From positions 21,472,683-21,536,682 of the forward strand of contig JASXTE010000002.1 in NCBI GenBank assembly GCA_030280995.1: a stretch of 64,000 nt of DNA, written 5' to 3'. This document shows, piece after piece, positions 855-62,874 of the stretch. A program made the translations under genes and the position numbers. The DNA comes from Hemileia vastatrix. Lineage: Eukaryota > Basidiomycota > Pucciniomycetes > Pucciniales > Zaghouaniaceae. The notes beneath the pieces are model-generated. The model worked only from the letters and a program-made list of their open reading frames with translations, had not been told where the DNA came from and did not search any database. Within the stretch, counting starts at the first letter, position 1, and each line of letters starts with the position of its first letter.

Positions 855-1578
855 GAACTCTCAAAGAATAGTACGTATTTCTTAATCAAAATGATTGTTT
901 TACTCAAATAAAAGAGGTAGTTTTAAAATATTAATATAGATTATAGATTATAATTACGCTGTTGTAAATACTAAGGTTATAAAATATAGAAATAAGTGTT
1001 GTATTGTAATTGTAATAATAAAGTAAGTGATGAAGGAATGTCTTGAAAAGAACAAAGTAAGAGGCCTTTTATAGGCAAAAGATGAGGGAATAAAATATAC
1101 GGAGTTTACACCATCTACTTTAAGAGTGTGAGAAAAGGATATCAAAGAAAAGGAGTACATATATGACATAAGAAATAAATAAACTGGTACGTCAACAAGG
1201 GCATCAAATTTATTAGCAATAAAGTTTGAGTTCCTTGGACTGTCACAATTAATTACACAATAATTAATTAATTATATTACTTTCACGGGATTCCAGATCT
1301 CTCACTGAGGCAATATAATTGCTTTAAAGTTTTTTTATTATAATTTTATTATTAAATTTTATTCCCATTGACTTATACTATTGAGCACGGTGTCAGGGAG
1401 TAAAATTGTAGGGGACATTTTATTTACATTAATTATTTATACTACTTATTGTACTTAACTAGTTAATTGTAAGTAATACTTAAGTAGATAATTCATTATT
1501 AGTAAGAAGAAGGGGCGTGGCTTCAACTCAGTAAAATAATTAATTATTTTACTGGTTAAGTCTATTGCCTGGCTGACA
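855..1578 (-). repeat. Degraded LTR, copy A of a three-copy family
   Basis: On the minus strand it begins TGTCAGCCAGGC at 1578 and shares several blocks with the copies at 10516-11314 and 55423-56230. These are the palindromic ATTAATTA block with GAAGCCACGCC, the GTGCTCA block, and a TATA-like GCCTATAAAAGGCCTC at about 1060-1075. The 3' end of the LTR is not clear and no target duplication was found, so the left boundary is approximate. Confidence 0.55.
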
Positions 1579-1650
1579 CCATAAGTGTTTTTGATAATGG
1601 GTGTGTTTTTCCTTATTTGCTAATAGTATCACATTTGCACACCATATGTA

Positions 1651-2244
1651 CAGCTACATCGAAAAAGGTTGGTGCAGAAATCAAAAATTCACCCCAACTT
1701 ACCCAGCATTTTTTTAGTTTTTTTCGTCCCAACTGCCTGTCATTTGTCGGTCTCCAGCTTGTCGCAAGTGTCACTAGATGAGGATCCAGTTAACACTTGG
1801 TTTGCTTGAGTATATTCTATTACTTGATTGATCAGCCCCTGAGCTGGGTCGGTGGGGTAGGGGGGGGCTCTCAGGAAATTGCCCCACCCATTTTGCACTT
1901 TCTCATCCATATTTACATCCATTTTGTCTTCCCCCCTCCCTCCTCAAAAGTAAGTCTTCTCCCGGTTTTAGTTTTTATATTTCATTAATTTTTTCTTTTC
2001 TTTTTTCTTTATTTATTTTCTCTTCTCTTTATTTTATTTATGGTTTTTTTTTCTCAATTGCTATATTAAAGTAATGTAAGTCGTTTTTATTTCTCTTTTT
2101 ATTTTATTTTTTTATTTTGATTCATTTTTTATTTTTTTCTCCTCAGATGCCTAATCTCAATCTGATTCTCAATCCGCCCCTTTCTCCACCACCTTTCTAC
2201 AATGACAACAACAGATATGATGAAGTCATTATTAGTCAGATCCC
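1651..2244 (+). repeat. Left terminal inverted repeat of Tc1-like copy 1
   Basis: This matches the reverse complement of 5205-5801 almost base for base until the two diverge after GATCCC. It contains a pyrimidine-rich leader, a GTAAGT donor at 1950 and a CTCCTCAG acceptor at 2146 just before an ATG. Confidence 0.9.
1950..2146 (+). other. Intron-like leader segment inside the TIR
   Basis: GTAAGT at 1950 and TTTCTCCTCAG ending at 2146 frame a T-rich segment that ends at an ATG. A second, shorter version (GTAAGT at 2313, CCTCCTCAG ending at 2418) follows because the leader is tandemly repeated on this side. The mirror copy sits in the right TIR. Use as a 5' UTR intron is inferred from the splice motifs only. 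Confidence 0.5.
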
Positions 2245-2460
2245 CCCCACCAATTTTTCACTTTCTTGCCCCTATTTACATCCATTTTGTCTTCCCCCCT
2301 CTCTCCTCAAAAGTAAGTCTTCTCCCAGTTTTCTTTTTTCTTTTCTTTTCTCTTTATTTTGTTTATGGTTTTTTGACTCAATTGTTTTTTATTTTTTTTA
2401 TTTTTTTTTCCTCCTCAGATGCCTAATCTTGATCAGATTCTCTATCTGCCCCTTTCTCAA
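2245..2460 (+). repeat. Second, diverged copy of the leader next to the left TIR
   Basis: The sequence from the CCACC block through the GTAAGT-containing leader to ATGCCTAATC repeats the order seen at 1880-2200, with differences and a shorter intron-like segment. The right TIR lacks this extra copy. It lies between the TIR and the transposase start. Confidence 0.7.
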
Positions 2461-2763
2461 GGATGGTGAAATTATTGAGAATTTTACTAGAAATGTTTTT
2501 ACTAGCTCTCTTACTCAGAATTTGTTTTGAGCAAGTGGTTTATTTTAAATATAAATTGTGTGATTCCCCAAATACATATTTTTCATGTCAAAGGTTAAAA
2601 TATCACAAAATTATTTGTGATCTGAATTTTGGTTTTGACAGTTCATTTTTTTTCTTTGCACATTAATATTACTTTTATTTACTGTTTGAAACCTTCTCAT
2701 TATTCTCGTCTTCTCCTCTTGACTCTTAACATCCTCTTTACTTCTCTTCTCTGTTGTTTCGAA

Positions 2764-3879
2764 ATGGTTTATTTGAAATATGACCCTCATTTTAAAGTAG
2801 ATGTGGTAATGAGTGCATTATATGGTAATTCCTTGGATGATATAAATGAAAAATATGGCTCACAAATTCATAGGAATTCTTTATTTCGCTGGATGGCTTT
2901 ATATCAAGAGACAAAGTCTGTAATTACAAATCCTGATACCTATATGAGACAAGGACACCCCTTTACTTTGGATGAGGAACAACGTGAATGTATTCTGGAG
3001 GTGATAAATAAGAATCCTACAGTGTACCAAATGGAACTGCAAAACGCTTTGTTCGAAAATTACAATATTAGAGTGTCACAGTCCACAATTCACCAAGAGT
3101 TAATATTACGCTTGAAAATGTCTAAAAAAACATGTAGAAAAGTCCACCCCAATCAAAATAAACATTCCCGAATCAGATATATCACTTTGGTGGCTGATTT
3201 TGACCCAAAATTTTTGGTCTTTACTGGTGAGAAAATTTTTAAGTATATTTTTTGGTAGATTTAAAGTGTTTTTTTCCATTCAAGATGAGTGTGGAGTCTG
3301 CTCAGAAGGTGTTGCTCGCACAACAGCATGGGCACCTGTAGGTCAACGTACTCCACGAATCCCGCAGGCGCGAGCTACACACCGCTTCAATATTATACCA
3401 GCTGTTTCATTGTCTGGTTTAGTGGCAACAGCTATCCTAGAGCCAATGGTTTGTCGCACTCATTTTGAGTATTATTTGCAAAACATTTTGGTAAGTTGTT
3501 AAAAAATAATATTAATATTTGGTAATATACTAAAAATTAGCTTTTATTTCATTCACACAAGCTTCCAATGATGAACCCTTATCCTGGGCCTAACAGTGTC
3601 TTGATAATGGATAATGCTGCATTCCACCATGGTGGATGTATTGCAGAAATTGTTGAAGAAAGGGGATGTAAGCTGGTGTATCTACCTGCTTACTCTCCTG
3701 ACTTTAATCCTATTGAAAAGGGATTTAGTGTTTTAAAAAGTGCTTTACGCCGTGATGGAAAATTGACTGGTGGAAAAGAGGACATGGCAATTATTGATCA
3801 ATTTGTTCATTTGGTATTCACACCTTCATTGATGAAGAAGCTGTTTAGGGCTAGTGGCTACATAAATCAGACATACTAG
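2764..3879 (+). CDS. Tc1-like DD34E transposase, three exons
   Basis: This should cut and rejoin the element ends at TA sites. Predicted exons are 2764-3226, 3285-3490 and 3562-3879, giving 328 residues; the introns (58 and 71 bp) have GT-AG ends. The N-terminus has a helix-turn-helix-like region (about residues 1-70), then a linker ending KKTCRKVHPNQ. The catalytic triad is readable: Asp in FTDECG, created across the first splice junction; Asp in IMDNAAFHHGG; and Glu in SPDFNPIEK, 34 residues after the second Asp. Exon 2 has exactly the length of its homologue at 59369-59574. I chose ATG 2764 because the homologue starts at the equivalent place (MCIKYDP against MVYLKYDP). No internal stop is seen. 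Confidence 0.88.
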
Positions 3880-3990
3880 TAAATTATATTTCACTCGTGT
3901 TTATGGAAATATAGATATTTGATTTTATAACATCTTTAAATGCTATTCAGTAGAAGTTACACATTATAAACCCTTTAAGTCCCCCCTCCA

Positions 3991-5108
3991 TTAAGATGTC
4001 TTATTCCGCTTCCTTTGCAAATATAAAGGATATGTTTTGACTGCCCTGACACATGCCAAAGCATATGCTTCAGGAATACCTACCTGCATAAGACGTTCTG
4101 AAGTGAAGTCTTGTAATAAAGACCAGTGAGTAATTCGAAGTTCAGACAACCCTTCCTGCAAATCAGAATCTGATACTTTGACTCGTGCATGACATAGAAA
4201 CTCCTCCAAGGTTGATTCATCTTCAAAGGCATCATATTCAGGTGAGGATCTGATTGAAGGTGGAAGAGTGGAGGCTGCTGCTTCAGAAGTATTGACTTGG
4301 GCATGAGATTTTATTGGATGCCACTGAAAAAGGGGTGTCTTTGGCGGCACAAGGTATGTCACCTCTTTAGGATTTGTAACCTGAAAAAGAAAAGGAAAAA
4401 GATTAATAGATTAAGCATTTTGAGAAGCAAAAAAAATAGACCGTTGCACGTGCCCAATTTTGTGCCATTGAAAAGGTTAGCTCAAAATACTCTTGAGGAT
4501 TCTCTGGATTGATGCAACAGTGGGCTTCTTGCTGATGCGTGATTTCTGGACGCGGATAGTGACAATCAAGCAGCAGACGGGCCTTCTCTATGTGGGCAGC
4601 TTGTCCATGCAAACACTCAGCTGGATTGGCTTCTACTTCCTCTTCAGATGAAGAGTTTTCAAGGTCCTGGTAGGCAGACTCTCTCTGCAGAAAAGCAAAA
4701 TAAGATATTAATAAAATAAAGAGAGAAAAAAATACTCACCTGCTGAGATGGTCGGGGGTCAATTTGCTCCATGTGTAAATAAATTTTGCAATCATGAATG
4801 TTCACTTCAGCCAATTCCAAAAATTGGACAAAAACATCATTTGAATCGAGCATCTTCTTTTGATTTGCCGAAAAATCTGAGACATGTGGTATAATAGCAT
4901 ACCACAAAACAGTACCTTTTTTAACTTCCTTCTCGACATAAATTCCCATTTTTTCCGGTTCACATTCAAATATTACTGTGACAGCCTGCTTCTTGAAGTC
5001 TTCTAGATTATGATTTGAAGGATCCCAAGAAAATCGTAGCTTATCTGGCTGAGACACAACCCTACTGACTTTGATAGATACCTCGTAATTTTTCTTCCTC
5101 TTCCGCAT
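3991..5108 (-). CDS. Second transposon gene, conserved protein of unknown function
   Basis: This spliced gene converges on the transposase. Exons read from the right are 5108-4740, 4684-4442 and 4380-3991, each keeping frame, for 333 residues from the ATG at 5108. An upstream exon starting at the ATG at 5302, inside the TIR, is likely. The first intron has a good GTGAGT donor; the second donor is weak. The middle exon holds a conserved block, CCINPENPQEYFELTF, kept at 60313-61082 in the other copy. The last exon contains an acidic stretch and a helical segment (DLQEGLSELRITHWSLL to the VGIPEAYALACVRA region) resembling a SAM-like bundle, a weak impression. I cannot name a family. It could assist transposition, bind DNA or counter silencing; none is shown. 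Confidence 0.72.
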
Positions 5109-5204
5109 GTTTTCCTTCTCTTTATTCTTCTTTTTTTATCATTTTTATTTTCTTTTTTGGGTAAAAAAAAGACAAACTCAAGATTTATTGCAATTGAGGA
5201 TTGA

Positions 5205-5801
5205 GGGATCTGACTAATAATGACTTCATCATATCTGTTGTTGTCATTGTAGAAAGGTGGTGGAGAAAGGGGCGGATTGAGAATCAGATTGAGATTAGGC
5301 ATCTGAGGAGAAAAAAATAAAAAATGAATCAAAATAAAAAAATAAAATAAAAAGAGAAATAAAAACGACTTACATTACTTTAATATAGCAATTGAGAAAA
5401 AAAAACCATAAATAAAATAAAGAGAAGAGAAAATAAATAAAGAAAAAAGAAAAGAAAAAATTAATGAAATATAAAAACTAAAACCGGGAGAAGACTTACT
5501 TTTGAGGAGGGAGGGGGGAAGACAAAATGGATGTAAATATGGATGAGAAAGTGCAAAATGGGTGGGGCAATTTCCTGAGAGCCCCCCCCCCCTACCCCAC
5601 CGACCCAGCTCAGGGGCTGATCAATCAAGTAATAGAATATACTCGAGCAAACCAAGTGTCAACTAGATCCTCATCTAGTGACACTTGCGACAAGCTGGAG
5701 ACAGACAAATGACAAGCAGTTGGGACGAAAAAAACTAAAATAATGCTGGGTAAGTTGGGGTGAATTTTTGATTTCTGCACCAACCTTTTTCGATGTAGCT
5801 G
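5205..5801 (-). repeat. Right terminal inverted repeat of Tc1-like copy 1
   Basis: This is the reverse complement of 1651-2244. Read on the minus strand it gives the same leader, the GTAAGT donor and the CTCCTCAG acceptor before an ATG at 5302. From there an open frame runs towards the minus-strand gene, so the TIR probably supplies its promoter, leader and perhaps first coding exon. Confidence 0.88.
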
Positions 5802-6132
5802 TATTAATGGGTGTGCATTATGTATAAATCTAATGGATATTGTTACATACTATAAAAGTTTGAAATGTTGTGAGTATGAACTTGACATTTGAATTGAAAA
5901 AAAAAAACAAAAATGGCATCACCAGTGTGCACCTAGCACTTTCTGTTTAGTTTGTCAGTGTGTCTTTATAATGTCCCAAAAACTGCTGAACATTTTTTTG
6001 TTTTTACTTTATATTATGAATCTTAAGGTGTCTATTGGCCATGGAAAAAAATTTGAATAAATTTGAATCAGTTTTATGACAGCAGTATAAAAAATGAGGG
6101 TGACGAGGACATTTTGCCTGGCAATGTACATA

Positions 6133-6294
6133 CAGCTAATCCTGGAAGGCTTGCGGTGGTCTTGTATCCCTTCCCCCCCCCCCAAAAAAAAAAAAAAAAA
6201 AGAAAAGAAATAAAATTATGATTTTAGGTAAGCTGACCTAATCTTGTGGCGGGAATGAAAGGCAAGTCAACCGCAAGCTTTCCAGGATTAGCTG
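6133..6294. mobile_element. MITE with TA duplication, CAGCTAATCC family
   Basis: It is 162 bp, flanked by TA at 6131-6132 and 6295-6296. Ends CAGCTAATCCTGGAAGGCTT and the reverse complement of AAGCTTTCCAGGATTAGCTG match with one or two changes, followed by the shared GCGGTTG core. It is a Tc1/mariner-type non-autonomous element. A C-run then A-run at 6173-6200 is a likely length-variable site. A relative lies at 62875-63192. Confidence 0.8.
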
Positions 6295-6306
6295 TAGATC
6301 AACTGG

Positions 6307-6419
6307 CACTGTGCGAAAAACGGCGTTATTCTTTGAAGTCCGACACCCGGTTTATTTTAAATTTGCAAATTGAATGGGGTGTCATACTTCAAAAAAACTA
6401 CACCGTTTTGCACACAGTG
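6307..6419. mobile_element. Small palindromic element inside a broken MITE
   Basis: CACTGTGCGAAAAACGG at 6307 is matched by the reverse complement of CCGTTTTGCACACAGTG ending at 6419, and the repeat continues inward through GAAGT..GACACCC. The right half of a CAGCTGATC-type MITE follows it (6420-6487, ending at TA); its left half is not present. No target duplication is evident. Confidence 0.55.
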
Positions 6420-6768
6420 ACGTAAAATCTCATGGTTTTGGCGGGGGATGGGATGCAAGACAACCGCAAGCTTTCTAAGATCAGCTGTACATACAGCTAA
6501 ATACACAATATTTCCCTTATTTCTCAGTTTCTCTCACAAACTTTATGTACAGTCAAACCCGTAAACATTGAGACAAAATTGAAAATTTTCGAAAATTTAT
6601 TGATTGATAGCCCAAAAGTTGAGCCGCAGTATTTTTATTTTTTTTTGACATCTTCAATTCATGTTGTGGCAATCCTTCAATTTACACTTAGCAGTTCCCA
6701 ATCCTTCATGCCCCACGCTGGGTAAGATTGTATGAAATAAAAAAGTTTTGGCAATCGGGCTGATGATA

Positions 6769-6956
6769 CAGCTAAGTCATAAAAGCTTGCGGAATTTTTG
6801 ACGAAAAATTGAAAGTTGTTCTCACCAAAAAATGATTTGCCCATTCATAAGTGTCAGAGATCGGGGGTACTTCCTTTTGAATAAGCAAATCATTTTTTCG
6901 TGGGCGAAACTTTTATTTTTTCGCCGAAAATTCTGCAAGATTTTGTGACTTGGCTG
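6769..6956. mobile_element. MITE with TA duplication, CAGCTAAGTC family
   Basis: It is 188 bp between TA at 6767-6768 and 6957-6958. Ends CAGCTAAGTCATAAAAGCTT and, reversed, CAGCCAAGTCACAAAATCTT. Its centre is also palindromic (AAATGATTTGC and GCAAATCATTTT flank a short spacer). A diverged copy of the same family is at 57824-58014. Confidence 0.78.
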
Positions 6957-6958
6957 TA

Positions 6959-7079
6959 CAGCTATTTGGTAAAAGCTTTCTGTCTCTTTGCCTTCCACTC
7001 CCCGCCAAAAACATGAGTTTAAGCCGCTTTTGGCGGGGGATGAGGGGCGAAAAAAGAGCAAGCTTTTCCCAAATAGCTG
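6959..7079. mobile_element. MITE with TA duplication, CAGCTATTTGG family
   Basis: It is 121 bp. Ends CAGCTATTTGGTAAAAGCTT and, reversed, CAGCTATTTGGGAAAAGCTT; TA follows at 7080-7081. It shares the single TA at 6957-6958 with the preceding MITE, so one inserted at the very edge of the other. Confidence 0.78.
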
Positions 7080-7468
7080 TATGTATCTCTGTTGTTTCGC
7101 CCCTCTGCTGTCACAAAATGAATTGAAGATGTCAAAAAAATATTACAGCTTAACTTCTTGGCTGTCAATACATTTTCAAAAAATTTCATTTTTGTCTCAA
7201 TGTCTATATTCTTTCCAATTTCACACATCCTACTTATTCTTTTATCCGTCGAGCCCTTGTCCCTGATTCTCTACCAGCAATGTGAATTTACGGTAATAAA
7301 AACCACCGAAATTAGCTGGTTTCATCCGCTGTAAATATTCTCTTACGCTCATAGTAATAATATTTTATTGCTAAGCAAAAATTTATATCGATCCAGAAAG
7401 CACAACGCTCAATCCAAATATTAAATTACACTCATTTTCTTCATCTTTGAGAAACTTTTTGAGACGAT

Positions 7469-8529
7469 ATGTTAACCTTTAGAATCTTTGCTATTTTATT
7501 TGTTCTATTTAGTAATGTATTTTTTTGATTACAAAATGGAGCCTACCGCTAATAGAATTTCTCCTTGCCAGATTGGAAATCCCGTATTGCAGTGTAGGCT
7601 TACCAGATATTTTCTTAGCTAATAAATTCCTAACACCTATTTATGTGTCTTGTAGTGCTGACGGGGAAGTAACGATCGCGACAGAATACCTTCGAGTAGC
7701 CAGAGACATTGAGACTAAAATCCAATCATGCCAGCAGCTAGTCAATAGTGGAAGTGCCGTGCAGAGCGAGATCGTCCCTGAATTTACCGAACTCATCACC
7801 TTGATTAAAGTATCAATCAAGCATAAGTGTAGGCATTGTGGACATCGAATCGCTGCAGCGTGCCAAAAGGCAAGTTTCTTTTTTGGGAAGTCATACTATC
7901 ACTAACTAGATCCCATGTTTTTAGTACAAAGTTGATATGAAAGTACGCGAAGTATTCAACCAATTTCATGCCCTTGTAGTACATATTAATCGCCGACGAG
8001 AAAACCTTCAAGCTTGCATAGGTTTGTATTCCAGAACTTCATTTTAAGTGGGTGGATGAAATATTGACAATTTTCCGATCTGTGTCTTTTTTGGGTCCTT
8101 TTTGTAATTCGCGTAGATGCCGTTACAGTTAGACGAATGAAGTCTTGCTACTCTCATTTTTTGAAACATTGCCGACTTGTGCTGAACACCCAAATTGTGC
8201 AATATGTTCCGAGCGTGTTTATCTCCGCTATGAACAGTTGTGGAGTGTCTGTGAATGAATTGGTAGTTGAAGTTGATTCTATTAACATCAACGTGGTCAT
8301 CAGTGGATTAGGAATTGATCTCAGTCTAGGAATGGGTGTAGGTGGCGGAATGGCAGGTGCCGAAATAGTAGGTGGCGAAATGATGAATGGCGGATCGGTA
8401 GGTGCCGAAATAGTAGGTGGCGAAATGATGGATGGCGGATTGGTAGCTGGAGATGGAATTGGTGATGGAATTGGTGTTAGTGGCCAATGGATTGATGATG
8501 GCAATATGGTTGTTGGCATGGGTCGTTAG
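7469..8529 (+). CDS. Predicted secreted cysteine-containing protein with Gly-rich tail, four exons
   Basis: The exon model is 7469-7511, 7598-7869, 7925-8021 and 8117-8529; all junctions keep frame and give 274 residues. Exon 1 encodes a short hydrophobic start, MLTFRIFAILFVLFS, typical of a signal peptide. Intron 2 is a GC-AG intron: donor AAG|GCAAGT, a CACTAAC branch-like site at 7900 and a TTTTTAG acceptor. The mature part has nine cysteines, including a KCRHCGH cluster. Exon 4 ends in a hydrophobic then Gly/Met/Glu-rich tail with two 15-residue repeats. The layout recalls secreted proteins of rust fungi, but I cannot name a family. It is the only region here with host-gene character. Exon 1 and the tail are the least certain parts. 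Confidence 0.68.
8356..8445 (+). repeat. Two tandem 45-bp units in the coding tail
   Basis: GGTGCCGAAATAGTAGGTGG begins at 8356 and again at 8401. Each unit encodes GAEIVGGEMM followed by NGGSV or DGGLV. Unit number could vary between isolates without breaking the frame. Confidence 0.9.
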
Positions 8530-8641
8530 CAAAGTTTTATTTTAGAGTCTAATATGTCAATCATACAATCCTTAATGTTCTCCAGTTGCCTCAGCCACAA
8601 GATTCAACCACCATTAATAACTGGTTTCTTGTAATGATTTT

Positions 8642-8937
8642 ATTATTATTATTATCTTACAATCTCACCCAGCAAGGGGCATGAAGGAAAACAGCAACAC
8701 AATATAAACCAGTAAATACAAGATGAGAGGGAAACTGAGGAAAGAGACAAATGGCAATTAATAGGGGACAAATGGATACCAACAACTAGATGGGTAAAGG
8801 CGGGTTATTTGGGAATCTATGAGTTTCTACTAAGAATTTGGCCGCAGCAGCCAGAGAATTGTCTCGTCCCTCGGCAACTGGTCGCATTCTGGTCCTTCAT
8901 GGGTCATTCACTCACTTTTAAAGATCACTCACTTATC
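8642..8937 (-). mobile_element. Truncated LINE 3' end (minus strand)
   Basis: The segment from the (ATT)n tail through ACAATCTCACCCAGCAAGG is a diverged copy of the 3' end of the LINE at 8999-9714. ATGATTTT occurs at both edges (8634-8641 and 8938-8945) and may be the target duplication. Only untranslated and extreme C-terminal sequence remains. Confidence 0.55.
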
Positions 8938-8998
8938 ATGATTTTGAAAACCTGTCAAAAAATAAGAAAGAGGGAGGCCATTGATCTTCGTCTGGTTT

Positions 8999-9714
8999 TT
9001 TTTTTTTTTTTTATTTCATACAATCTCGCTCAACAAGGAGCATGAAGGGAGGTCAACCTTATACAAGTACTAAATACATGGTCATTGAGCTAATTGGAAG
9101 AGGAGACAAGCAGGCAATATGAAAGGAGCAAATAAAGAGGATTAATGGGTAAGGGATAGTGGGAGATTATTTGGAAATCTTTTAGTATCTACCAGAAACT
9201 GAGCAACTTGTTTAATAGCTGGAGAGGGAGAGAGCAGGGCCGAAGTTTTGAGGGGAACTTTGAACTTCTTAGCCACGTCAAAGAGGATTTTACGCGCATC
9301 TAGGTGGGCAGGGCAGAAGAGTAGTACATGTTCAGGTGTTTCCTTAGAATTGAGATTGCAAAGAGAGCAGAGAGGTGATTCAGACGCCTTAAACCTGAAT
9401 AAGTAATGTTTAAGTGGGGAATGGCCTGATCTGCATTGCGCAAATGCTGTGGCTAATGGGCGAGGAAGTTCAGATAGCACTTTGAACATCAGAGGAGGAT
9501 TAAACCTTCCTCTCACTTTTATGAGTGTGTCTGGAGAGGGGGAAGAGAGAAGCATGTATTTGACTTTGGTTTTTAAATATGTTTTTAGGGCAGAGGAGGA
9601 AGGTGAAGGGGAGAGAAAAGTTAGGAAGGACTCAACTGGGGATGCCATTGGGTGAGACGAGTTGGCTAGTGCATCTGCAACTTCGTTGCCCAGGATACCC
9701 CGGTGTCCTGGGCA
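8999..9714 (-). mobile_element. 5'-truncated LINE insertion with poly(A) and target duplication
   Basis: Read on the minus strand it ends in a poly(A) of about 15 bases, seen as T's from 8999. The 13-bp direct repeat CTTCGTCTGGTTT flanks it at 8986-8998 and 9715-9727, as expected for target-primed reverse transcription. The 5' end lies inside the RNase H domain. Confidence 0.85.
9142..9714 (-). pseudogene. C-terminal fragment of a non-LTR retrotransposon ORF2
   Basis: Translation starts at the truncation point with CPGHRGILGNEVADALA, the end of a ribonuclease H domain, and runs without a stop to 9142. Further on is CSLCNLNSKETPEHVLLFC, a CX2CX9HX4C zinc-knuckle-like motif usual in the C-terminus of such ORFs. 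The reverse transcriptase and endonuclease are absent, so it cannot move by itself. The open frame suggests a young insertion. Confidence 0.85.
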
Positions 9715-9727
9715 CTTCGTCTGGTTT

Positions 9728-10104
9728 ACAGCTATTCATGGGTGTTGAGTACTCTACTGCGCCGCATACATATGTATTTAGTCTAGATGCCCCCCCTCAG
9801 TATGGAAGCAATGTCAATGTCTGTCAGCCAGGATATGCTAAGAGTCCAGTAAATCTTATGTTAAATAACTTGGACATAAATGAGAAACAAAATGTAGATA
9901 AATAATATATACAAATTAAATATTATATTATATTACCATATTTTTTCACATAATTAAAATAAGAGTTATACTAATTTTATTATTATATAAATTGTATATA
10001 CATTTAAATAAACATAAATAATATATTCTATTCTATAAAAACTGGTACATTTTAATGAGTTTGATGTTTATAAATTAATAATTAATTAATTACAAATTTA
10101 TATT
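9728..10104. other. Unassigned AT-rich sequence
   Basis: A stretch of ordinary composition (9728-9900) may be the continuation of the sequence the LINE split. The remainder is very AT-rich. Nothing recognisable. Confidence 0.4.
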
Positions 10105-10304
10105 AGGGGGTATAAAAGTTAGAAATTTGAAATTATTTAAAAGGCATTTCATAACAAAAAAAGAAAGCCACAAACTTGACATTAATTTTCAGTAAATAGG
10201 TGTTTTGTGGTAACAATATGGCATATTTTATAAAATAACCATGGTTAATTTGGTTAAAAAAAGATGTATTTTGAAATGGAAGATTTCTAACTTTGATACC
10301 CCCT
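10105..10304. mobile_element. Harbinger-type MITE, copy 1
   Basis: It is 200 bp with ends AGGGGGTATAAAAGTTAGAA and, reversed, AGGGGGTATCAAAGTTAGAA, flanked by ATT at 10102-10104 and 10305-10307. It is one of five such copies here besides this one (10351-11352, 38318-38517, 56968-57166, 57304-57503 and relatives). The ends resemble the AGGGGGTGTCAG ends of the element at 49719-53465, which could mobilise it. Confidence 0.85.
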
Positions 10305-10515
10305 ATTATAAGCAGTAAATTTACCTTATAATGTAATTAATTAATTAATTAGGGGGTATCAAAGTTAGAAATTTGTAATTATTTAAAAGGTATTTCACAG
10401 CACAAAAATAAAGCCACAAGAATGACATTGATTCTCAGCAAAAAGATGTTCTGAGGGCACAAGATGGCATACCTTAAAAATAATCATGGTTGATTTGGTG
10501 GAAAAAGAGGTATTT

Positions 10516-11314
10516 TGTCAGCCAGGCTGTTAGACTTACCCAGTAAAATAATTAATTATTTACTGGGATGAAGCCACGCCTTTTTATTTTATTATTATTA
10601 TTATTATTAATCATAATATATTTACTTTAAATTTACCTGTAATAAATTAACTAATTACAAAAAAGTAAAATTAGTAAATAATTAAAATTAATATTAATTG
10701 TCCCTTATATTTTTATTTCTTAACAACGTGCTCAATGACAGGTTAAGAGAAATAAAAATTAATATTAAAATAAAAATTTAATATTGAAATAAATTTTAAT
10801 ATTAAACATAAAAATAAATCTATACAAGAAATTCAAAATACTTATTTAAAAATGACACTTACAGTAATTTTTAAATAAATCAATTTATTTCTGACATATA
10901 CAGTAAACACACATTTTAAACACCTTCTTTCTAGAACAATCTTATTATTTGAAAACATTCTTTTTCTTCTCTCATACTCCTGTATATAGGATTCTTTACC
11001 TCTGGGCTTTGTCTCTCTTTTGCCTATATAAGGCCTCCCTTTTCTGGTTGTTTTGGACATCTATTTACTAACTTATTATTTTATTACAATCATTACTACA
11101 AACAAATATTTATTACTTATTGTTTCAGTATTTACTAACACGTAATTCTAAATCATTAAATATAATAATATTTATTAATTTTTTACCTCTTTAACTTGAG
11201 TAACTTAAAAGAAAGAAAAATTATACGTACCATTGGCTTTGAAACCTTCAATACCCACCTATCACCGCTGTTGGACCTCCATTAAATCTTCTAGACCATC
11301 AGGACCCTTCAACA
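10516..11314 (+). repeat. Solo LTR, copy B
   Basis: It is 799 bp, starts TGTCAGCC and ends CAACA, with a 5-bp duplication TATTT on each side (10511-10515 and 11315-11319). No internal retrotransposon sequence is present, so it probably arose by recombination between two LTRs. Copies at 855-1578 and 55423-56230 are in the opposite orientation. Confidence 0.85.
11021..11040 (+). promoter_or_regulatory. TATA-like promoter core of the LTR
   Basis: TGCCTATATAAGGCCTCCCT is the best conserved block among the three LTR copies (CTATAAAAGGCCTC and CTATAAAAGGGCCTC in the others). Its position in the middle of the LTR fits a retrotransposon promoter. Confidence 0.5.
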
Positions 11315-14582: not shown

Positions 14583-15144
14583 TGGGGCTTCAGTTCTGGC
14601 AAATAAGCACTTATTTAAGTGCTGATTTCTAAAACAAACTAGCCCCAATACTGGTGGACTTCAAAATGAAATAAGTCACTTATTTCACTCAAATCCACAC
14701 TTTCTCAACCAAAAGTGCTGATTTGACCATAACATCCCATTTCATTGATTTGTCAGCATCATACCATTCATAAAAAGCACTCTACAGCATAACACTTTAT
14801 AGCTCAAAACATTGTACATCATTCACATTTTTATACTGTATAGGAGTCATGTCTTCATCACTCTCAAATTGTGATAAGCAATGTCAAGCAATCACTTTCA
14901 TAGCTCTTGATTTATTCTTGGACTCTTATTGTGATTCTGATTCTTATTTTGAAGAAGATTTTCCATTTTTATCAAAAATAATCAAGAAACATTACCTTCT
15001 TCCAAGAAAGCTTCAAGTACTTCATACCCCCAAGTACACCATTCAAACCCTTCTTAACCTATCTGTACCCAGTTTTAGACAGTTGTTCAGTACCTCTCAG
15101 GAACATTTTCTCAAATTTCTTGAGCTTATTCAGGACCACCCTGT
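14583..15144 (+). pseudogene. Harbinger element copy 2, 5' end and start of transposase gene
   Basis: From the degraded end GGGGCTTCAGTTCTGGCAAA it aligns through the leader and the first about 100 codons (ATG at 14849, MSSSLSNCDK) with the element at 49719-53465. The coding part has the SDSD acidic stretch and the LHTPKYTIQTLL motif. It is cut at the CACCCTGT point by a gypsy LTR; the rest of this copy was not found. Confidence 0.75.
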
Positions 15145-16210
15145 TGTAGAAAGACTCTTACAGAGTAAGCAGAATGCAAGGGAGTTGGATACACAGAAGA
15201 AAACCCTTTCCCTTTAAGTAAAATAAGATTTCACAATTAACTAAGCTAAAACCTCTATTTGATATAAAATGACTAATAATCTATTTAATATTAACGGTGT
15301 TGAGCTGTATAATAGGTGTTCTTTATAATGAGGGAAAGAAACACAACAGTGAAGCTTTATTTAAAAAACTTATTTAAATGATTGAATATTTATTTTTATG
15401 AAGCTTTTATTTTTATTTGATTTAGTTGATAAATTCAAGTCCCTGATGATGAGACTTTCATAATGGTACCCTATAAGTATATATTTATGAGTTGTTATAT
15501 AAGTTTATAAAATGTTTAGTAAAAGTGTAATATTTTTAAGGATATTACAAATTTAAATGTTATTATTCGTTGTTGTTGTTAATAGTTAAGATGTGTCTAT
15601 GATAGATGATGATGTTGTTAATTTAAAAGATGTTAGATACTGTTCTAATTTTAAAACTACTGGCTTTATATGCATATTGTGTCATGTGCTTCCTTTTTCC
15701 ATGCTGGAGCATCCCAGAGCTTGTCTGGAGATCACCAGAGTTCATACAGAGCTTTCCAGTGAATTACAGAGTTTATACAGACTTCCTGACTCAATTAGAG
15801 CCTTAAAATACAAATAAAAAATCTAGAAAATTTACAGATAGTAGAGCTACTTCTCCTTTATAATCCCAACTTTTTTTTGTAGTCTGTGTAGCCCTATTTT
15901 TCTAGTAAAAAATTATCAAAGTTAAGTAAATCATGAAAAATGAATATTAATCAAAAATACTTTATAAAATTATTTAAAATAGAAGAAAATAGTAAAAGGT
16001 TCCCAAATTTTCCTAAAGGTTCTTGAGACTCCCAAATTTATTTTCTGTACACTTTTAGACTTTTACTTGCATTTCCTGACCGTTAATCAATTGTTTAATC
16101 TTGACTTGTAATATTAATCCTTTTTAACCCTTTTAAATACTCATTCCTTTTACTATAAACCATTATAAAATTAGATTGGATTTTCCAATCTCAATAATCA
16201 GACCCATAAA
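15145..16210 (-). repeat. 3' LTR of the gypsy nest (minus orientation)
   Basis: The outer edge reads TGTAGAAAGACTCTTACAG on plus and abuts Harbinger sequence, so it is a true element end. It is collinear with 31642-32600: shared blocks include CTATAAGTATATATTTAT, the TTATATGCAT block, AGAGCTTGT and AAGGTTCTTGAGACTCC. The inner border is estimated. Confidence 0.7.
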
Positions 16211-16380
16211 TCTTATTGTTTTATAATAAAACTAGTGCCATACTAAATTTTTGACTGCCACATCCTTCCTTCAACAAAGAATATCCCCATTCTTGTAAAT
16301 TTGCATAATTGATCAATCACATATTTAACCTCTCTTCATCCTATTCAACCAACTACTTCAAATAATCCTGAAAAATTTTC

Positions 16381-16780
16381 ACTTCATTTTGTTATCAATA
16401 TCATTGTCAATATTTCATCAAAAGACCATGCTGTCACTTGTGAGCTTTGCATCAAATACCAGGTACCTTGTCTGATTTCTAACCCTTTTCTTCCTGGAAG
16501 AACTGCCTGTGATCTTTGTAGGCTTAAGAAAATCAAGTGTAATCTTCCAATTATACCTTCCAGAACTAACATTTATACTAGACCAGCTACCATTCCTGAT
16601 TTGAAAATACCTAAAAAGAGACTATCCTAGATTCCCACCTTCTTTAAAAACATAGAGGCCAAAACAGCTTCTTTTTCTAAAAATCCTAATCCTGAGCTTC
16701 CTCCTCCATATCAAGACACCAATCCTATATTTCCAGTATCACCCTTTGGCTTTTCTGAAACATTATTTCTTAAATCAAAA
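16381..16780 (+). pseudogene. Open stretch with a double CX2CX6C motif
   Basis: The plus strand encodes TCELCIKYQVPC and, 16 residues further on, CDLCRLKKIKC, each CX2CX6C with a basic run in the second. This resembles zinc-cluster repeats in some fungal retroelement and regulator proteins. No good start is seen and a stop lies about 60 codons later. It runs opposite to the gypsy genes, within the 3' part of that element. Its origin is unknown. Confidence 0.4.
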
Positions 16781-23749: not shown

Positions 23750-24268
23750 CTACCCTAAAAAATGAGAGTCTTCATACTTATCTTTTTTTATAAATTTACC
23801 AAAAGCTGAACTTTTAATTTGCCTCTTCTTGGTGCACATACAACACTTACACATAGTGGTTATTCCAGGCCTTTTTTTCAAACCATTGTCTCCTGGAGGT
23901 GCCAACCACATATGAAGCTGTCTCAAATCATCTCCTGTTGTCTCTAAACTAATCCCCATTACACTCTGATAACCTATTGGGGTTTCAAAATCCATCAATA
24001 ATGGCCCACCAAGAACTTTTTTCATAGCTCCTCTAGCCACATAAAAATACACCATAGAAACAGATCCAACTACCCTTAATTTGACATGTTCATCCATCCC
24101 CATAAGTTCAGTTGCATGTCTGCCTATACCTCTTAACTTTCCACCAGTGCCAGATATAATTGGAAAGACTATAATAGTTGATTTTTCTAAAGAAATAAAT
24201 TTAATTTGAGGCCCAGAATCCACCAGGGCCTTTACCTCCTTACCATTTAACATTACCATTAAATACAC
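23750..24268 (-). pseudogene. Gypsy element 1, aspartic protease remnant
   Basis: A 172-codon frame with KALVDSGPQIKFISLEKS, the active-site region of a retropepsin (DSG), and the later GGKLRGIGRHATEL. This is the longest uninterrupted piece of the element. It should cleave the polyprotein, but its neighbours are broken. Confidence 0.78.
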
Positions 24269-24319
24269 TAGAGGAGCAGAAAAATGAGTTTCCAGCTACT
24301 CTCCAAACTTCTCCACATT

Positions 24320-49420: not shown

Positions 49421-50026
49421 ATAGTTCTTTTTAATATTATAAATTTATTGATTAAATAAAATAGTAATAATGAGTTATATTTTTCATCCACAATTCCACT
49501 CTAATGATTCCCACTGCACAAAAAGGGTTCAATCAGTCCTTTCTTTACTGCTTGTGCATATATTTTATTGCCCAAAGTACTACAATTTTTTGTAGTGATT
49601 ATCCCACATCTGATTCAGGAATATTTTTGAACAATATATGTTTTTTTTACAAAAGACCTTATCATATCCAATATCCCACAAAAAATACAACCTGTTTTTG
49701 TATTAAAACCCATTAATTAGGGGGTGTCAGTTGTGGCAAATCCGCACTTACAAATCCGCACTTACATTTGACCGAATCCGCACTTAAATAAGTGTGGATT
49801 TCCAAAACACACTAGCCCCAATACTGGTGGATTTCAAAATGAAATAAGTCACTTATTTCACTCAAATCCGCACTTTCTCAACCAAAAGTGCTGATTTCAC
49901 CATCAAGTCCCATTTCAATGATTTGTCAGCATCATCCCATTCATACACAGCACTCCGCAGCATAACACTTCATAACTCAAAGCATCGTACATCACTTACA
50001 TCTTCATATCATATCATATAAGAGTT

Positions 50027-50760
50027 ATGCCTTCCTCACTTTCAAATTGTGATAAATTACATCAAGCAATGACTTTCATGGCTCTTGAACTGCTCTTGGT
50101 CTCTGATTGCGATTCTGATTCTGATCTAGAAGAAGATTTTGTCTTTTTATCAAAAATGGCCACGAAATGTTACCTTCTTCCCAGAAAGCCTCAAGTACTT
50201 CATACCCCCAAGTACACCATCCAAACACTTCTTAAACTATCTACAACCAGCTTTAGACAGCTGTTCAGGACTTCTCAGGAATGTTTCCTTAAATTGCTTG
50301 AGCTTATTCAGGATCATCCCATATTTAACAATAATTCTCAAAAAGAAAAACAACATCCTTCAATATAATTGGCCATCACACTATGTCATTTGGGTTAAAA
50401 TGGTAATGGATCTGCTTTGAAACGTTTAGAAAATGTCTTTGATTTAGGGTATGGTTCAGTTAACACTTATACCAAACAATGTATCACTGCCATCAACTCC
50501 TTGTAATCTCAACTTCTCACCTGGCCAACAAAAGAAGAGCGACTTGAATCATCTCAGGTTATGCAAGCAGAGGGCTTCCCAGGATGTATTGGTTTTGTTG
50601 ATGGTACTGCTATTCCTTTGAGCCAGAAACCTGCTCAAGGTGGAAACAATTACTTTCACATTCTTGTCAAAAATTTTCACCAAAATATTTACAAGTCAAA
50701 AAAATTCTATATCTGTTTTAAAAAATTGGCAATACTCTCCCCTGAATTTTATTGAAGCAA
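50027..50760 (+). pseudogene. Harbinger-type transposase remnant
   Basis: The first frame (ATG at 50027, MPSSLSNCDKL) has the acidic SDSDLEED region and LHTPKYTIQTLL. After frame breaks the frame at 50561 gives EGFPGCIGFVDGTAIPLSQK, the region around the first catalytic Asp of DDE_4-type transposases. Beyond 50650 it is replaced by two diverged copies of a short AT-rich repeat. The other catalytic residues were not found, so it should be inactive. Confidence 0.75.
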
Positions 50761-58014: not shown

Positions 58015-58148
58015 TATAAGCAAATATTTGTTAAATCAACAACTATTAATTCAACTTAATCTTGTTTCTTGGTAGTGGTGAGCTAGAACCAAATAGTTAA
58101 ATCAAATATTAGACATGCTCTTAGCAACAGTACACAATTAGACTAATA

Positions 58149-58727
58149 CAGCCATATTGGCAACTCTTGGTGCAGCAAGCTAACAAAAAGGCGAGTTATG
58201 CACAGCATTATCAACTGACATAGACTGATATATCTGATATTTATTACAGATCTGTCAGTGTTCGGAGACCAGCCTACAATTGATCCACACCACCATGCTT
58301 CCGCCAGGTCTCCCCTACCCAGGTTTCCCTCCTCCCATCCACCTCATCCACTCATCTATCCTTTTGATGGTATCAACCCCTTCCTCACCATCCTCACCAT
58401 CCTCACCCCTCTCTTCGACCACTACTGGCGCCTGGTTTTCTTTTTTTTCGTCCAGTTTTCACTCCTCCCATCCACTCCATCCACTCATCTATCCTTTAGA
58501 TAATATCAGCCCCTTCCTCACCATTGTTTCCATTGTCGCCATCCTCACCATCTTCACCCCTCTCTTCCACCACTACTGGAGCCTGGTTATCTTTCATTGG
58601 TAAGTTTTTTATTTTTTATTTTTTGTCATTTGTATTTTTCCTATTTTCACTAATATTTTTTTCTGGTCTTCCCTACCCAGTTTTCACTCCTCCCATCCAC
58701 CTCATCCACTCATCTATTGTTTTGATC
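58149..58727 (+). repeat. Left TIR of Tc1-like copy 2
   Basis: It holds tandem leader units built on CACTCCTCCCATCCACCTCA, CCACTCATCTATCCTTT and CACCACTACTGGCGCCTGG. An intron-like segment (GTAAGT at 58600, CACTAAT at 58648, CTACCCAG ending at 58680) lies inside. Confidence 0.85.
58600..58680 (+). other. Intron-like leader segment inside the TIR
   Basis: 81 bp with GTAAGT donor, CACTAAT branch-like site and CCCTACCCAG acceptor. The mirror copy is in the right TIR (donor around 62229 on minus). Confidence 0.5.
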
Positions 58728-58843
58728 ACCAAACTCTTGTTGAAAGACATATTTTTTTCATTTCCTGCTCTTTTCTAATTAAGTGTATTTGTTTTTTTTA
58801 TTAATTTTTGCCTATTATATTTTTTTCTCTCAAAATTTTTAGG

Positions 58844-59943
58844 ATGTGTATTAAATATGATCCTAAATTTAAGGTGAAAGCTGTAATGGCTTCATTAGAT
58901 GGTGACTCATTAGATGAGATCAACTTGAAAAATGGCTCATTGATTAATCAAAACTCTTTACACCATTAGCTCCAGCTGTATGAAAGCACACGAGCTGTGG
59001 TGACACACCCTTCCACTTATCTCAAATGTAGACAGCCATTCAAAATTTTGGATGAACAACGTGACTTCTTGGAGAAGATTCTGGCATTTGAACCTACAAA
59101 ATATCAGTGTCAATTACAAACAGAATTGCGGGAAAAGCATGACTTAGATGTCTCTCAAACTACTATTTATGAGGAGCTTGTGGTTTGTCTTCACATGAGT
59201 AAAAAGGTGTTGAAAAAGTTTCATCCAAAGCAGGATTACAATAGAAGGATTGTTTATATGTCAGTAATTGGTGAATATGATCCATCTTTCCTTGTATTCA
59301 CAGGTAAGCTTTATTTGTTTACAAATATTTCTCAGTCTTATACTCATTAGTTTCTTCTTCAATACCAGATGAATCAGGAATATCTATGGAAGAGGTTGGC
59401 TGTGATGATGGGTGGGCAAAAGTAGGTGACCAAACAAAAAGGATTCCAAAGCCTACAAGTAAATTCAGATTCAACATAATTCCTGCTGTATCTTTATCTG
59501 GTCTAGTTGCATCTACAATTCAAACCAAAATTGTTTGTAGAGTGCATTTCGAATTTTATCTGGAAAATATCCTGGTATGTTTTTTTTTCTTACTTGGTGG
59601 TGGTATTTATGTTTGTTATTTGTTGTTTTAACAGCTTCCAATGATGTCTCATTTTCCTGGACCCAATAGTGTACTAGTGATGGACAATGCAGCCTTCCAT
59701 CATGGAGGCCAAATTTTAGAAATAGTTGAAAAATTTAAATGTCGACTAGTTTATCTACCTGCGTATTCTCCAGATCTAAACCCAATTGAAAATTCTTTCC
59801 AAGTTTTGAAATCTAACTTGCAACATTATGCACACTTATCAGGAGATCAAGGTGATGATGATATTATAAGATTATTTATTGAGATGTTCTTCACCAAAGA
59901 ATTAATGCATGGTCTTTTTAAAGCTAGTGGTTATATTGAGTGA
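58844..59943 (+). pseudogene. Tc1-like transposase with premature stop
   Basis: Exons 58844-59303, 59369-59574 and 59635-59943 correspond one to one with copy 1; introns are GT-AG. Codon 42 is TAG (58967-58969) where copy 1 has Trp, so TGG to TAG is likely. The rest is open and keeps the DD34E residues (FTDESG across the junction, VMDNAAFHHGG, SPDLNPIEN). Only this stop prevents a 324-residue product. Confidence 0.85.
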
Positions 59944-59949
59944 AATAAT

Positions 59950-60312
59950 TTATTTTAGAATATTAATGATTTTATTTATAATGTACTTTTTTACGTAATT
60001 TTCATGGGGAGAGTGGCCAGAGAAACATTGTGTGAGCACAGTGGCCTGGGCTCTGGGGAGTCTAGCCAGCGCCAGTATTTATGAAATATAATATTATATT
60101 AGATATTTAGAATTAAAATTTTTCCAACAAACTCATGATTACAACTCATCACTCATCCAAATTTGAAAATAATATGTTAAATATTTTATATTTATTCATT
60201 TCTCAGACAGTTAATAAAGTAATTAAAAAGTGGGGATCATCGTGTGTAGAAAGTTGAATAAAACTGTATGATCATAATTTACATCTTTACCTAGCCACAA
60301 CAAAGATTCAGG
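59950..60312. other. Spacer between convergent genes of copy 2
   Basis: Mostly AT-rich, with one GC-richer patch (60005-60080, TGGCCTGGGCTCTGGGGAG). It probably holds the 3' ends of both transcripts. Confidence 0.4.
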
Positions 60313-61810
60313 TTACTTACCCTTTGCACGTTTCTTGAGCTTCTGAAGCTCCTTAACATGAGCACTATATGATTTGGAGGTGCAGACACATGCTCTTGCT
60401 AGCGCATCAGGTATTCCCACCTCAATCAATTCTTGCGGAGTATAATCTACTAAATATGGCCAGTGCGTAAGTCCCAATTTCCCAAGTCCATCTTGCAGTT
60501 TAGAGTTTTCAATATTGACACATGCTTTCTTGAAGAAAGCTTCAATTGAGTTAGGGTCTTTGTCTGAAAATGATAGAGGTAATTCTGGTGAGGATGAAGC
60601 TGCTTGAGTTTTGATTTGGACTTCAAGTAAAGAAGAAAATCGTTCACTAGGGCCAGGATCAGAAGAGCATGGTTTTTTAGTAATGCTCTTGTATGCGAAT
60701 TCAGGTGAAATCAGGGGGATCAAGTAAGTCACTTCTTGAGGGTTCGCATTCTGCAAAAATAAATAAGTAAACAACTAAAAAAAGTATAAAAAATAAAATT
60801 ATATGTGAGATAACTTACCATAGCATAAGCCCAAGTTTTAGCCTTCTCAAAAGTTAGGATGAAATATTCTTGTGGATTAGCTGGGTTGATGCAACAGTGA
60901 ACAAGTTCTCCACGTGTGACATCTTTACATTTTTTATGTATTTGAAGCAGCGCCTTGACTCTTTCATAGTGTAGAGCATCCTTTTTCAAGCCCGGTGTTG
61001 GATGTAACTCATTGTTTTTATCTTCTTCTTCTGATTAATCTACTACATTAGACTGCTTCAATTGTTTTATTTGAGATCCCCTCTAAAAAAGTAAAGCAAA
61101 TAAAAAAATTAGAGGAGAGGCAAAAATAATAAATAAAAAAAGGAACAATTACTAAACTTTATTGCAGGTCTGAAATCATTGTGTTCAAGTAAGATAGAAA
61201 CTTTTCGCTTATTGAAAAAAAGTACAGCAAGATTGAGAAATTTGATAAAAATTTCTACACTATTGATTTTTTTCTTCTTCTGAATAGAGAACTCTCTACT
61301 TAGGGGGATAATTCCACACCATGAGAAACTTTTTCAATCAACTTGTTTCTGTATACATGTGGCCAAAATATTTTCTTTTTCATCCTTAATTGTTTGCATT
61401 ACACTTTGGCAAAATAAATCAAGATCATGGTTTGAAGCCTCCCAGACAAATGAGAGCTTTTCTGGCTCGGAATGTATCTTTTCTAATGTAATAGTTTGTT
61501 CTTCATCATTAGACAAACGTTTTTGGGTGATAGTTGGTTTATTCTTGTTATGCATGTAGATTGTGAACTCTATGTAAATAGTAATATGGGCTGAGAAGGA
61601 ATTATCAGATCTGGTAGGAGAGATAAGGTCCAATGTAACATGTGATACAGAATTTTCTATTCGTCCTGAAACTTCAGAAGGAGATGGAAAATCTTTTGGT
61701 CTTGATACTTCAGAAGGTGATACATTGAAGAATTCATAACTGAAGTTTTCCTCATCATTGTTGATGCGGATAATGTAGCTAGGAGGGGGGTTCACAAAGG
61801 GTAAATCCAT
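60313..61810 (-). pseudogene. Second transposon gene, copy 2, decayed
   Basis: Homologue of 3991-5108. The start (MDLPFVNPPPSYIIRINNDE at 61810) resembles the TIR-encoded start of copy 1 (NPPLSPPPFYNDNN). A TGA follows IQKQVD near 61334, a shift comes soon after, and a TAA lies in the middle exon. That exon (61082-60819) keeps CCINPANPQEYFILTF. The last exon (60750-60313) is fully open and keeps LQDGLGKLGLTHWPYLVDYT and VGIPDALARAC. Splice signals are good (GTAAGT at 60818, TTTTGCAG before 60750). Confidence 0.75.
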
Positions 61811-62098
61811 TATTTCTGTATCTAGACATAAACAAGCAAAAAATAAGTAAAAGAATGGAAAAAATGAAATAAAGGAAACAAACTTACTAAATTTTATGAT
61901 CCAGTATTGTGTTTGAGAGTCAGAGAGGTTGGCTTTATCACTGGAAGAGACAACAAAAAAGAAAAAAAATATCAGTGAAAATAGGAAAAATATGACAAAA
62001 AAGAAAAAACAAAAGCAAAGAAAGATTATCTTACCAAAGAAAGAAAACCAGGCGCCAATAGTGGGTGGAAGAGAGGGGTGAAGAAGGGGCTGATACGA

Positions 62099-62708
62099 TC
62101 AAAACGATGGATGAGTGGATAAGGTGGATGGGAGGAGTGAAAACTGGGTAGGGAAGACCGGAAAAAAATATTAGTGGAAATAGGAAAAATATGAACAACA
62201 AAAAATAAAAAATAAAAAATAAAAAACTTACCAATGAAAGAGAACCAGGCGCCAGTAGTGGTGGAAGAGAGGGGTGAGGATGGTGAGGATGGCAACAATG
62301 GCAACAATGGTGAGGAAGGGGCTGATATGATCCAAAGGATAGATGAGTGGATGGGGTGGATGGGAGGAGTGAAAACTGGACGACAAAAAAGAAAAAGAAA
62401 AAACTTTCCAATGAAAGAAAACCAGGCACCAGTAGTGGTCAAAGAGAGGGGTGAGGATGGTGAGGATGGCAAGGAAGGGGTTGATACAATCAAAAGGATA
62501 GATGAGTGGATGAGGTGGATGGGAGGAGGGAAACCTGGGTAGGGGAGACCTGGCGGCAGCATGGTGGTGTGGATCGATTGTTGACTGGTTGCCAAACACT
62601 CACAGATCTGTAATAAATGTCAGATATGTCAGTCTATGTCAGTCGATAATGCTGTGCATAACTCGCCCTTTTGTTGGCTTGCTGCACCAAGAGTTGCCAA
62701 TATGGCTG
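62099..62708 (-). repeat. Right TIR of Tc1-like copy 2
   Basis: Inverse of the left TIR, with the same leader units and intron-like segment. It is about 30 bp longer, owing to small insertions such as CATTGGAAAG. Confidence 0.85.
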
Positions 62709-62874
62709 TAATAACATTGAAATTGGTAAAGCAGAAATGTGAGGGATGCCCAGCACTATGCACAGGAGAGTGTAATAATAATGGAATCCAACACTAATAT
62801 TCATAGAATGGGAGTACAACAGCAAGACTAACATTGATGGAAAGTAGGAGCGAGTAAGAGCTACTTTCAATTTA

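Follow-up and report, generated by a model that had tools for sequence, protein, structure and literature searches.

Tc1/mariner transposases are textbook self-sufficient cut-and-paste enzymes, and a single open reading frame (ORF) is usual, though not defining, for the Tc1 family. What, then, is a second gene doing in such an element? The question is raised by a 64,000-nucleotide stretch of Hemileia vastatrix DNA (the window; assembly GCA_030280995.1, contig JASXTE010000002.1, positions 21,472,683 to 21,536,682), for which an earlier note had proposed a TA-flanked element carrying a DD34E transposase on the plus strand and a spliced minus-strand gene of at least 333 codons. We confirm this element (element 1, 1651-5801 in the window numbering used throughout) and a diverged relative (element 2, 58149-62708), both with exactly the limits first proposed. 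We read the feature, with a probability of about 60%, as a family of autonomous Tc1-like DNA transposons (DD34E, TA target) that have two genes and inverted repeats of about 0.6 kb, and in which the second gene, ORF2, would act as a transposition co-factor. We are far more confident that ORF2 encodes an accessory protein which the element needs over evolutionary time. It is regarded as the element's accessory gene, and neither as a host gene nor as a passenger, because of its pairing with the transposase, the TA-flanked tips of the copies, purifying selection and the correlated distances of the two genes.

Two convergent genes between long inverted repeats

The transposase of element 1 matches the Pfam family DDE_3 (E 7.7e-30, 104 bits at a cut-off of 28.6), which places it in the Tc1/mariner (IS630-Tc1-mariner) superfamily, and its second D and its E are 34 residues apart, counted by eye in the translation, as in the Tc1 family (DD34E). 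The TA target duplication of Tc1/mariner elements is present on both sides of both window elements and at 21 of 21 visible ORF2-side ends of the nearest copies. The single-ORF habit of the Tc1 family is not kept: a second gene occurs in every one of the 30 nearest copies, counting element 1. In element 1 the two genes converge, with 111 nt between their ends. Of the 30 near copies, most retain the splice sites of the transposase, and tblastn found relatives of this protein at 17 loci on viral contigs (36-50% identity).

ORF2 is interrupted by two GT-AG introns of 55 and 61 nt and comprises at least 333 codons, since coding may extend upstream of 5108. A short frame in the arm of element 1 (5302-5200, MPNLNLILNPPLSPPPFY...) resembles a frame at the matching place in locus L068 and is perhaps an extra 5' coding exon. 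Among the near copies the donor GT of intron 1 is conserved in 29 of 30, with a gap in the remaining one, and that of intron 2 in all 30. The intron 2 donor of element 1 itself (4441-4436) reads GTCTAT; because this is unique among the 30 copies (24 have GTCTGT and five GTCAGT), splicing of this intron may be weaker in element 1 than is the norm in the family. A chance reading frame was considered for ORF2 and is ruled out by the conserved donor GTs together with the ratios of non-synonymous to synonymous change (dN/dS) and their wrong-frame control given below.

Both arms of element 1 (594 nt each, compared over 597 alignment columns) carry the same leader signals. In the left arm these are a gtaagt donor at 1950 and a cag acceptor preceding the ATG at 2147, and the right arm holds the identical donor and acceptor ahead of ORF2. 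Because each gene has one of the repeats upstream of it and the leader donor and acceptor are found in both arms, the simplest view is that the mirrored repeats would supply transposase and ORF2 with the same promoter and leader. Behind the left arm (2245-2458), a diverged second copy (78-90%) of leader, intron and exon start stands in tandem ahead of the transposase.

According to the earlier note, the second gene recurs in element 2 with the same exon layout and a CCINPxNPQEYF block. This proved right, but both genes contain stop codons and the copy is dead. Its ORF2 blocks share 31, 40 and 38% identity with those of element 1 in unchanged order and orientation, and the HCCINPxNPQEYF block is present. 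The transposase is 46-55% identical to that of element 1, and its last exon matches DDE_3 (E 2e-18). The arms are about 580-610 nt long (612 columns) and both contain the leader donor; a tandem Pro/Ser-rich stretch with donor is seen in them (62036-62550, 58307-58726), in about three copies on the right side. No third copy was found in the window by tblastn with both proteins.

Table 1. Features of the two elements, in window numbering.
Feature	Position	Strand	Remarks
Left terminal inverted repeat, element 1	1651..2244	+	TA at 1649-1650; 98.5% alike to right arm
DD34E transposase, element 1	exons 2764-3226, 3285-3490, 3562-3879	+	328 aa; Pfam DDE_3
ORF2, element 1	3991..5108; exons 5108-4740, 4684-4442, 4380-3991	-	333 codons plus stop; possible further 5' exon
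Right terminal inverted repeat, element 1	5205..5801	-	mirrors left arm; TA at 5802-5803
Left terminal inverted repeat, element 2	58149..58735	+	88.9% alike to right arm; TA at 58147-58148
Transposase, element 2	58850..59943	+	stop codon inside first exon
ORF2, element 2	60313..61558	-	three exons; stop codons in or next to first two
Right terminal inverted repeat, element 2	62097..62708	-	internal tandem repeats; TA at 62709-62710

Pairing and joint mobility of the two genes

We searched the assembly to which the window belongs (748 Mb, 791 contigs) and scored the best 150 of 675 candidates for the last exon of ORF2 and the best 150 of 1034 for that of the transposase. Among these ORF2 matches, 86 have a convergent transposase match within 6 kb and none has one in the other orientation. 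The paired fraction is 48/54 at ORF2 identities of at least 80%, 9/13 at 60-80%, 5/13 at 45-60% and 24/70 below. An ORF2 partner was found for 84 of the 150 transposase matches, and for 55 of 58 at an identity of at least 70%. The 64 of the best 150 ORF2 matches that have no transposase among the matches listed could be taken for members of a host gene family beside which transposons merely insert. However, since only the best 150 were scored for each gene, such a missing partner is no proof of a missing gene, and three loci that are unpaired among the matches listed (L045, L048 and L049) do hold transposase exons on inspection. ORF2 faces a convergent transposase end in each of the 30 best loci, and the repeat tip on its side (up to 6 mismatches in 40 allowed) follows it at a similar distance in 22 of 30 near copies with different flanks. 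We therefore find a host gene family the least credible of all explanations.

TA directly follows the tip in 21 of these 22 copies, in 21 different flanks, and the 22nd reaches the edge of its stretch. Because the tips sit in differing flanks with TA, we read the two genes as having moved together in many separate insertion events. Within the 30 near copies, stops and gaps are absent from the transposase in 17, from ORF2 in nine and from both genes in seven.

The earlier note had concluded from the two window elements that the second gene has stayed with the transposon over time, and diverged copies bear this out. We chose ten ORF2 matches of 35-74% identity whose last exon has no internal stop, a sample that leans to intact copies. 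All ten match ORF2 of element 1 or element 2 in all three exons, and eight have convergent transposase exons (in L048 part of one exon only). TA-flanked long repeats enclose both genes in L050, L051, L052 and L053. In L054 and L055 no transposase was found within about 9 kb; both have motifs resembling repeat ends on the ORF2 side, as judged by a motif scan without chance control, and in L054 the motif is identical to the tip of element 2 over its first 20 bases. These two loci look like broken elements.

The reverse sample comprised nine stretches, namely seven transposase matches without listed partner (six of 31 at an identity of at least 60% and one at 57%) and the 3 kb beside two relatives of the last. 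ORF2 exons are present in five of them (L068, L071, L073, L081 and, with the last exon only, L080) and remnants in L072, and ORF2 was not found in L069 (3.2 kb examined), L070 and L074 (about 9 kb each). L069 holds a partial transposase beside an apparent nested element. L073 has both genes within one repeat pair (532 nt, 91.5%, TA), separated by about 4.9 kb, which we take to be an insert. A second inverted-repeat pair (175 nt, 98%) was seen for L073 with L079 at 968-10643, outside the repeats of the two-gene element. L074 matches its relatives L057, L080 and L081 only as far as the end of ORF2. The loss of ORF2 in L074 looks copy-specific, because L057, L081 and L080 (last exon, within 3 kb) carry the gene. 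We also considered that transposases lacking ORF2 form a separate ancestral clade and rejected this idea: L074 has the ORF2-bearing L057 as its sister, L070 groups with L072 and its remnants, and L073 has ORF2 further out.

Purifying selection and shared history

The earlier note had suggested dN/dS between copies as a check, with values near 1 across many copies counting against its interpretation. Between element 1 and L048, L049 and L068, the dN/dS of ORF2 is 0.17 (95% bootstrap 0.11-0.25), 0.19 (0.13-0.27) and 0.15 (0.08-0.25), respectively, and between L052 and L056 it is 0.19 (95% bootstrap 0.12-0.30); these four subfamily pairs have a dS of 1.0-1.3, and three of them share element 1 and so are not independent. 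A fifth pair, L055 and L071, yields 0.14 (0.00-0.24) at a dS of 1.8. The wrong-frame control for ORF2 gives 1.41-1.55, and the transposase reaches 0.11, 0.21 and 0.14 in the three subfamily pairs with enough codons. Across subfamilies (dS 1.0-1.8), ORF2 is under purifying selection. Values near 1 are seen among the near copies, where singleton changes give 1.02 for ORF2 and 1.15 for the transposase and shared changes 0.90 and 0.63 (the two decayed rows L032 and L046 being left out). High values are also found in five close pairs (dS <0.25), with 0.54-0.79 for ORF2 and 0.77-1.67 for the transposase in the three that have one. Both are as expected for decay after insertion. With that reservation, the check did not turn out against the interpretation of the earlier note. 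In six more distant, saturated pairs, ORF2 has a dN/dS of 0.35-0.44 in four and of 0.17 and 0.19 in two, compared with 0.14-0.26 for the transposase, so that ORF2 tends to evolve faster than the transposase over such distances.

The distances of ORF2 and transposase are correlated (Mantel r 0.88, n = 12, none of 5000 permutations as high). Both gene trees place element 2 with L052, L056 and L053, pair L050 with L051 and join element 1 to L049 and L068. They conflict on L071, which groups with element 1 by its transposase and with the element 2 side by its ORF2, a possible exchange between elements. Deep nodes, among them those of L057 and L073, are weak. By these distances and trees, the history of the two genes is largely shared.

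These data also bear on the view that ORF2 was captured from the host and is carried along as a functionless passenger. Such a gene might well lack a Pfam family, as ORF2 does, and be missing or broken in some copies. However, it would hardly show a dN/dS of 0.14-0.19 in five subfamily pairs, an exon order that is unchanged in diverged loci and a history correlated with that of the transposase, and the loss in L074 looks specific to that copy, with ORF2 in three relatives. We consider a passenger very improbable.

The ORF2 protein and its possible role

ORF2 has no match in Pfam at E up to 1, hence none to recombinases, zinc-finger/kinase proteins, TET/JBP dioxygenases or alpha-kinases, and the searches made found no sequence relative. 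The structure prediction for the last exon that the earlier note had suggested was run and returned a five-helix model, whose structural neighbours include SAM and HhH chains. By this model a SAM/HhH-like fold is weakly predicted for the last exon. Single scans of 12 last-exon rows (alignment A4) against Pfam gave no SAM match at E up to 1, and a profile of A4 searched against PDB sequences gave four matches at E up to 10, with no SAM chain among them.

The earlier note had inferred either an accessory role in transposition or one in anti-silencing. Our tentative proposal, which we place somewhat short of even odds in this detail, is that the ORF2 protein would be nuclear, carry an alpha/beta domain at its N-terminus and a SAM/HhH-like one at its C-terminus, associate with itself and help the transposase to pair two long and distant repeats. 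The anatomy of the element, the joint movement and inheritance of its two genes and the purifying selection are borne out by the data above, whereas we infer that ORF2 is expressed, that it has the same promoter as the transposase, that its product is nuclear and self-associating, and at which step it acts.

The main rival holds that ORF2 is an anti-silencing protein that attaches to the repeats of its own element and lifts host methylation or heterochromatin, for which VANC of the Arabidopsis VANDAL elements is reportedly a precedent. In four of the six distant pairs ORF2 evolves faster than the transposase, which would be expected of an arms-race protein. Transposons of other superfamilies in rust and other fungi carry TET/JBP dioxygenases that have been proposed to serve escape from silencing, according to the excerpt of PMC12730594. 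However, without any Pfam family ORF2 lacks the known domains of dioxygenases, methyl-readers and DNA-binding proteins, and between neighbouring subfamilies its constraint is about equal to that of the transposase. An anti-silencing role thus seems unlikely to us, if worth serious attention.

Alternatively, ORF2 could be a self-regulator of the element, that is, a repressor or copy-number control that limits the transposase. With a gene of its own and a mirrored promoter, such a protein could titrate the transposase, and interruptions are commoner in ORF2 than in the transposase among the near copies (21 vs 13 of 30). Still, purifying selection over long times is less easily accounted for at the single-copy level if a gene does nothing but repress, by which reasoning we regard self-regulation as improbable.

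Other features of the window

Two similar ORFs (14774-15217, 49976-50368), which begin with MSSSLSNCDK and MPSSLSNCDK, may resemble the N-terminus of HARBI1-type proteins; for the second of them no Pfam match was found at 0.01. Retroelement pieces occur at 9142-9735 and 23750-24295, with weak matches to zf-RVT and aspartyl protease that both remain under the curated cut-off. An ORF at 16313-16630 contains a partial fungal Zn2Cys6 cluster (PF00172, E 1.1e-6, 14 of 39 positions) that is above the Pfam cut-off and in keeping with a fungal genome.

Discussion

Tc1/mariner elements as a rule carry the transposase alone (PMC12242761), as the earlier note had assumed, and exceptions are known from ciliates, namely Tec and TBE (PMC7325037) as well as Sardine, Thon and Anchois (PMC3464196); these and the following comparisons extend to the excerpts of the papers cited. 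Tec of Euplotes resembles the present family in being a Tc1/mariner element of the DD34E type with repeats of about 700 bp and several genes, one of them in the complement. However, Tec belongs to a ciliate and has three ORFs, including a site-specific recombinase (PMC7325037), whereas ORF2 has no Pfam match and so none to a recombinase. The TBE elements of Oxytricha possess accessory ORFs beside a Tc1/mariner transposase that are all under purifying selection, with a dN/dS of 0.1-0.3, although most copies are interrupted (PMC4724952). The pattern in the ORF2 family, constraint despite interrupted copies, is much like this. In contrast, TBE has three genes and repeats of about 80 bp (PMC7325037), and one of its products is a zinc-finger/kinase protein (PMC12242761), a domain not found in ORF2 by Pfam. 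Sardine, Thon and Anchois of Paramecium combine an IS630/Tc1-type transposase with hypothetical ORFs, and the repeats are long in Sardine (425 bp) and in Thon (about 700 bp). Sardine and Thon differ by a DD35E motif, a tyrosine recombinase and palindromic repeats, and Anchois by its short repeats (PMC3464196).

In fungi, accessory genes for TET/JBP proteins or alpha-kinases, in part in opposite orientation, are known from KDZ, hAT, Harbinger, IS3EU, EnSpm, ESTA and Helitron transposons. These belong to other superfamilies, Tc1 and mariner elements are not mentioned in the excerpt of that paper (PMC12730594), and ORF2 matches neither domain. Minos-type elements are members of the Tc1 family with repeats of several hundred bp, for which the excerpt of PMC7325037 does not name a second gene. 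Tc1-Mariner elements are present in rust genomes (PMC12210899). In our searches of the open-access literature we found no accessory genes in fungal Tc1/mariner elements. On a bolder and rather doubtful reading, ORF2 would represent an undescribed protein family that is a (near-)obligate partner of, and ancestral to, a whole clade of fungal Tc1-like transposases, the element would be the first two-component Tc1/mariner system outside ciliates, and its mirrored long repeats would be twin promoters.

The accessory proteins of TBE were still termed surprising in 2025 (PMC12242761). Diverged Tc1 lineages with two genes are numerous in this genome, and at least one has copies in which both genes are uninterrupted (seven of the 30 nearest). 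This makes the need of a Tc1 element for a helper testable in terms of repeat pairing, silencing escape or self-control. In addition, since each arm precedes one gene, the pairing of two genes may explain why the repeats of these elements are long.

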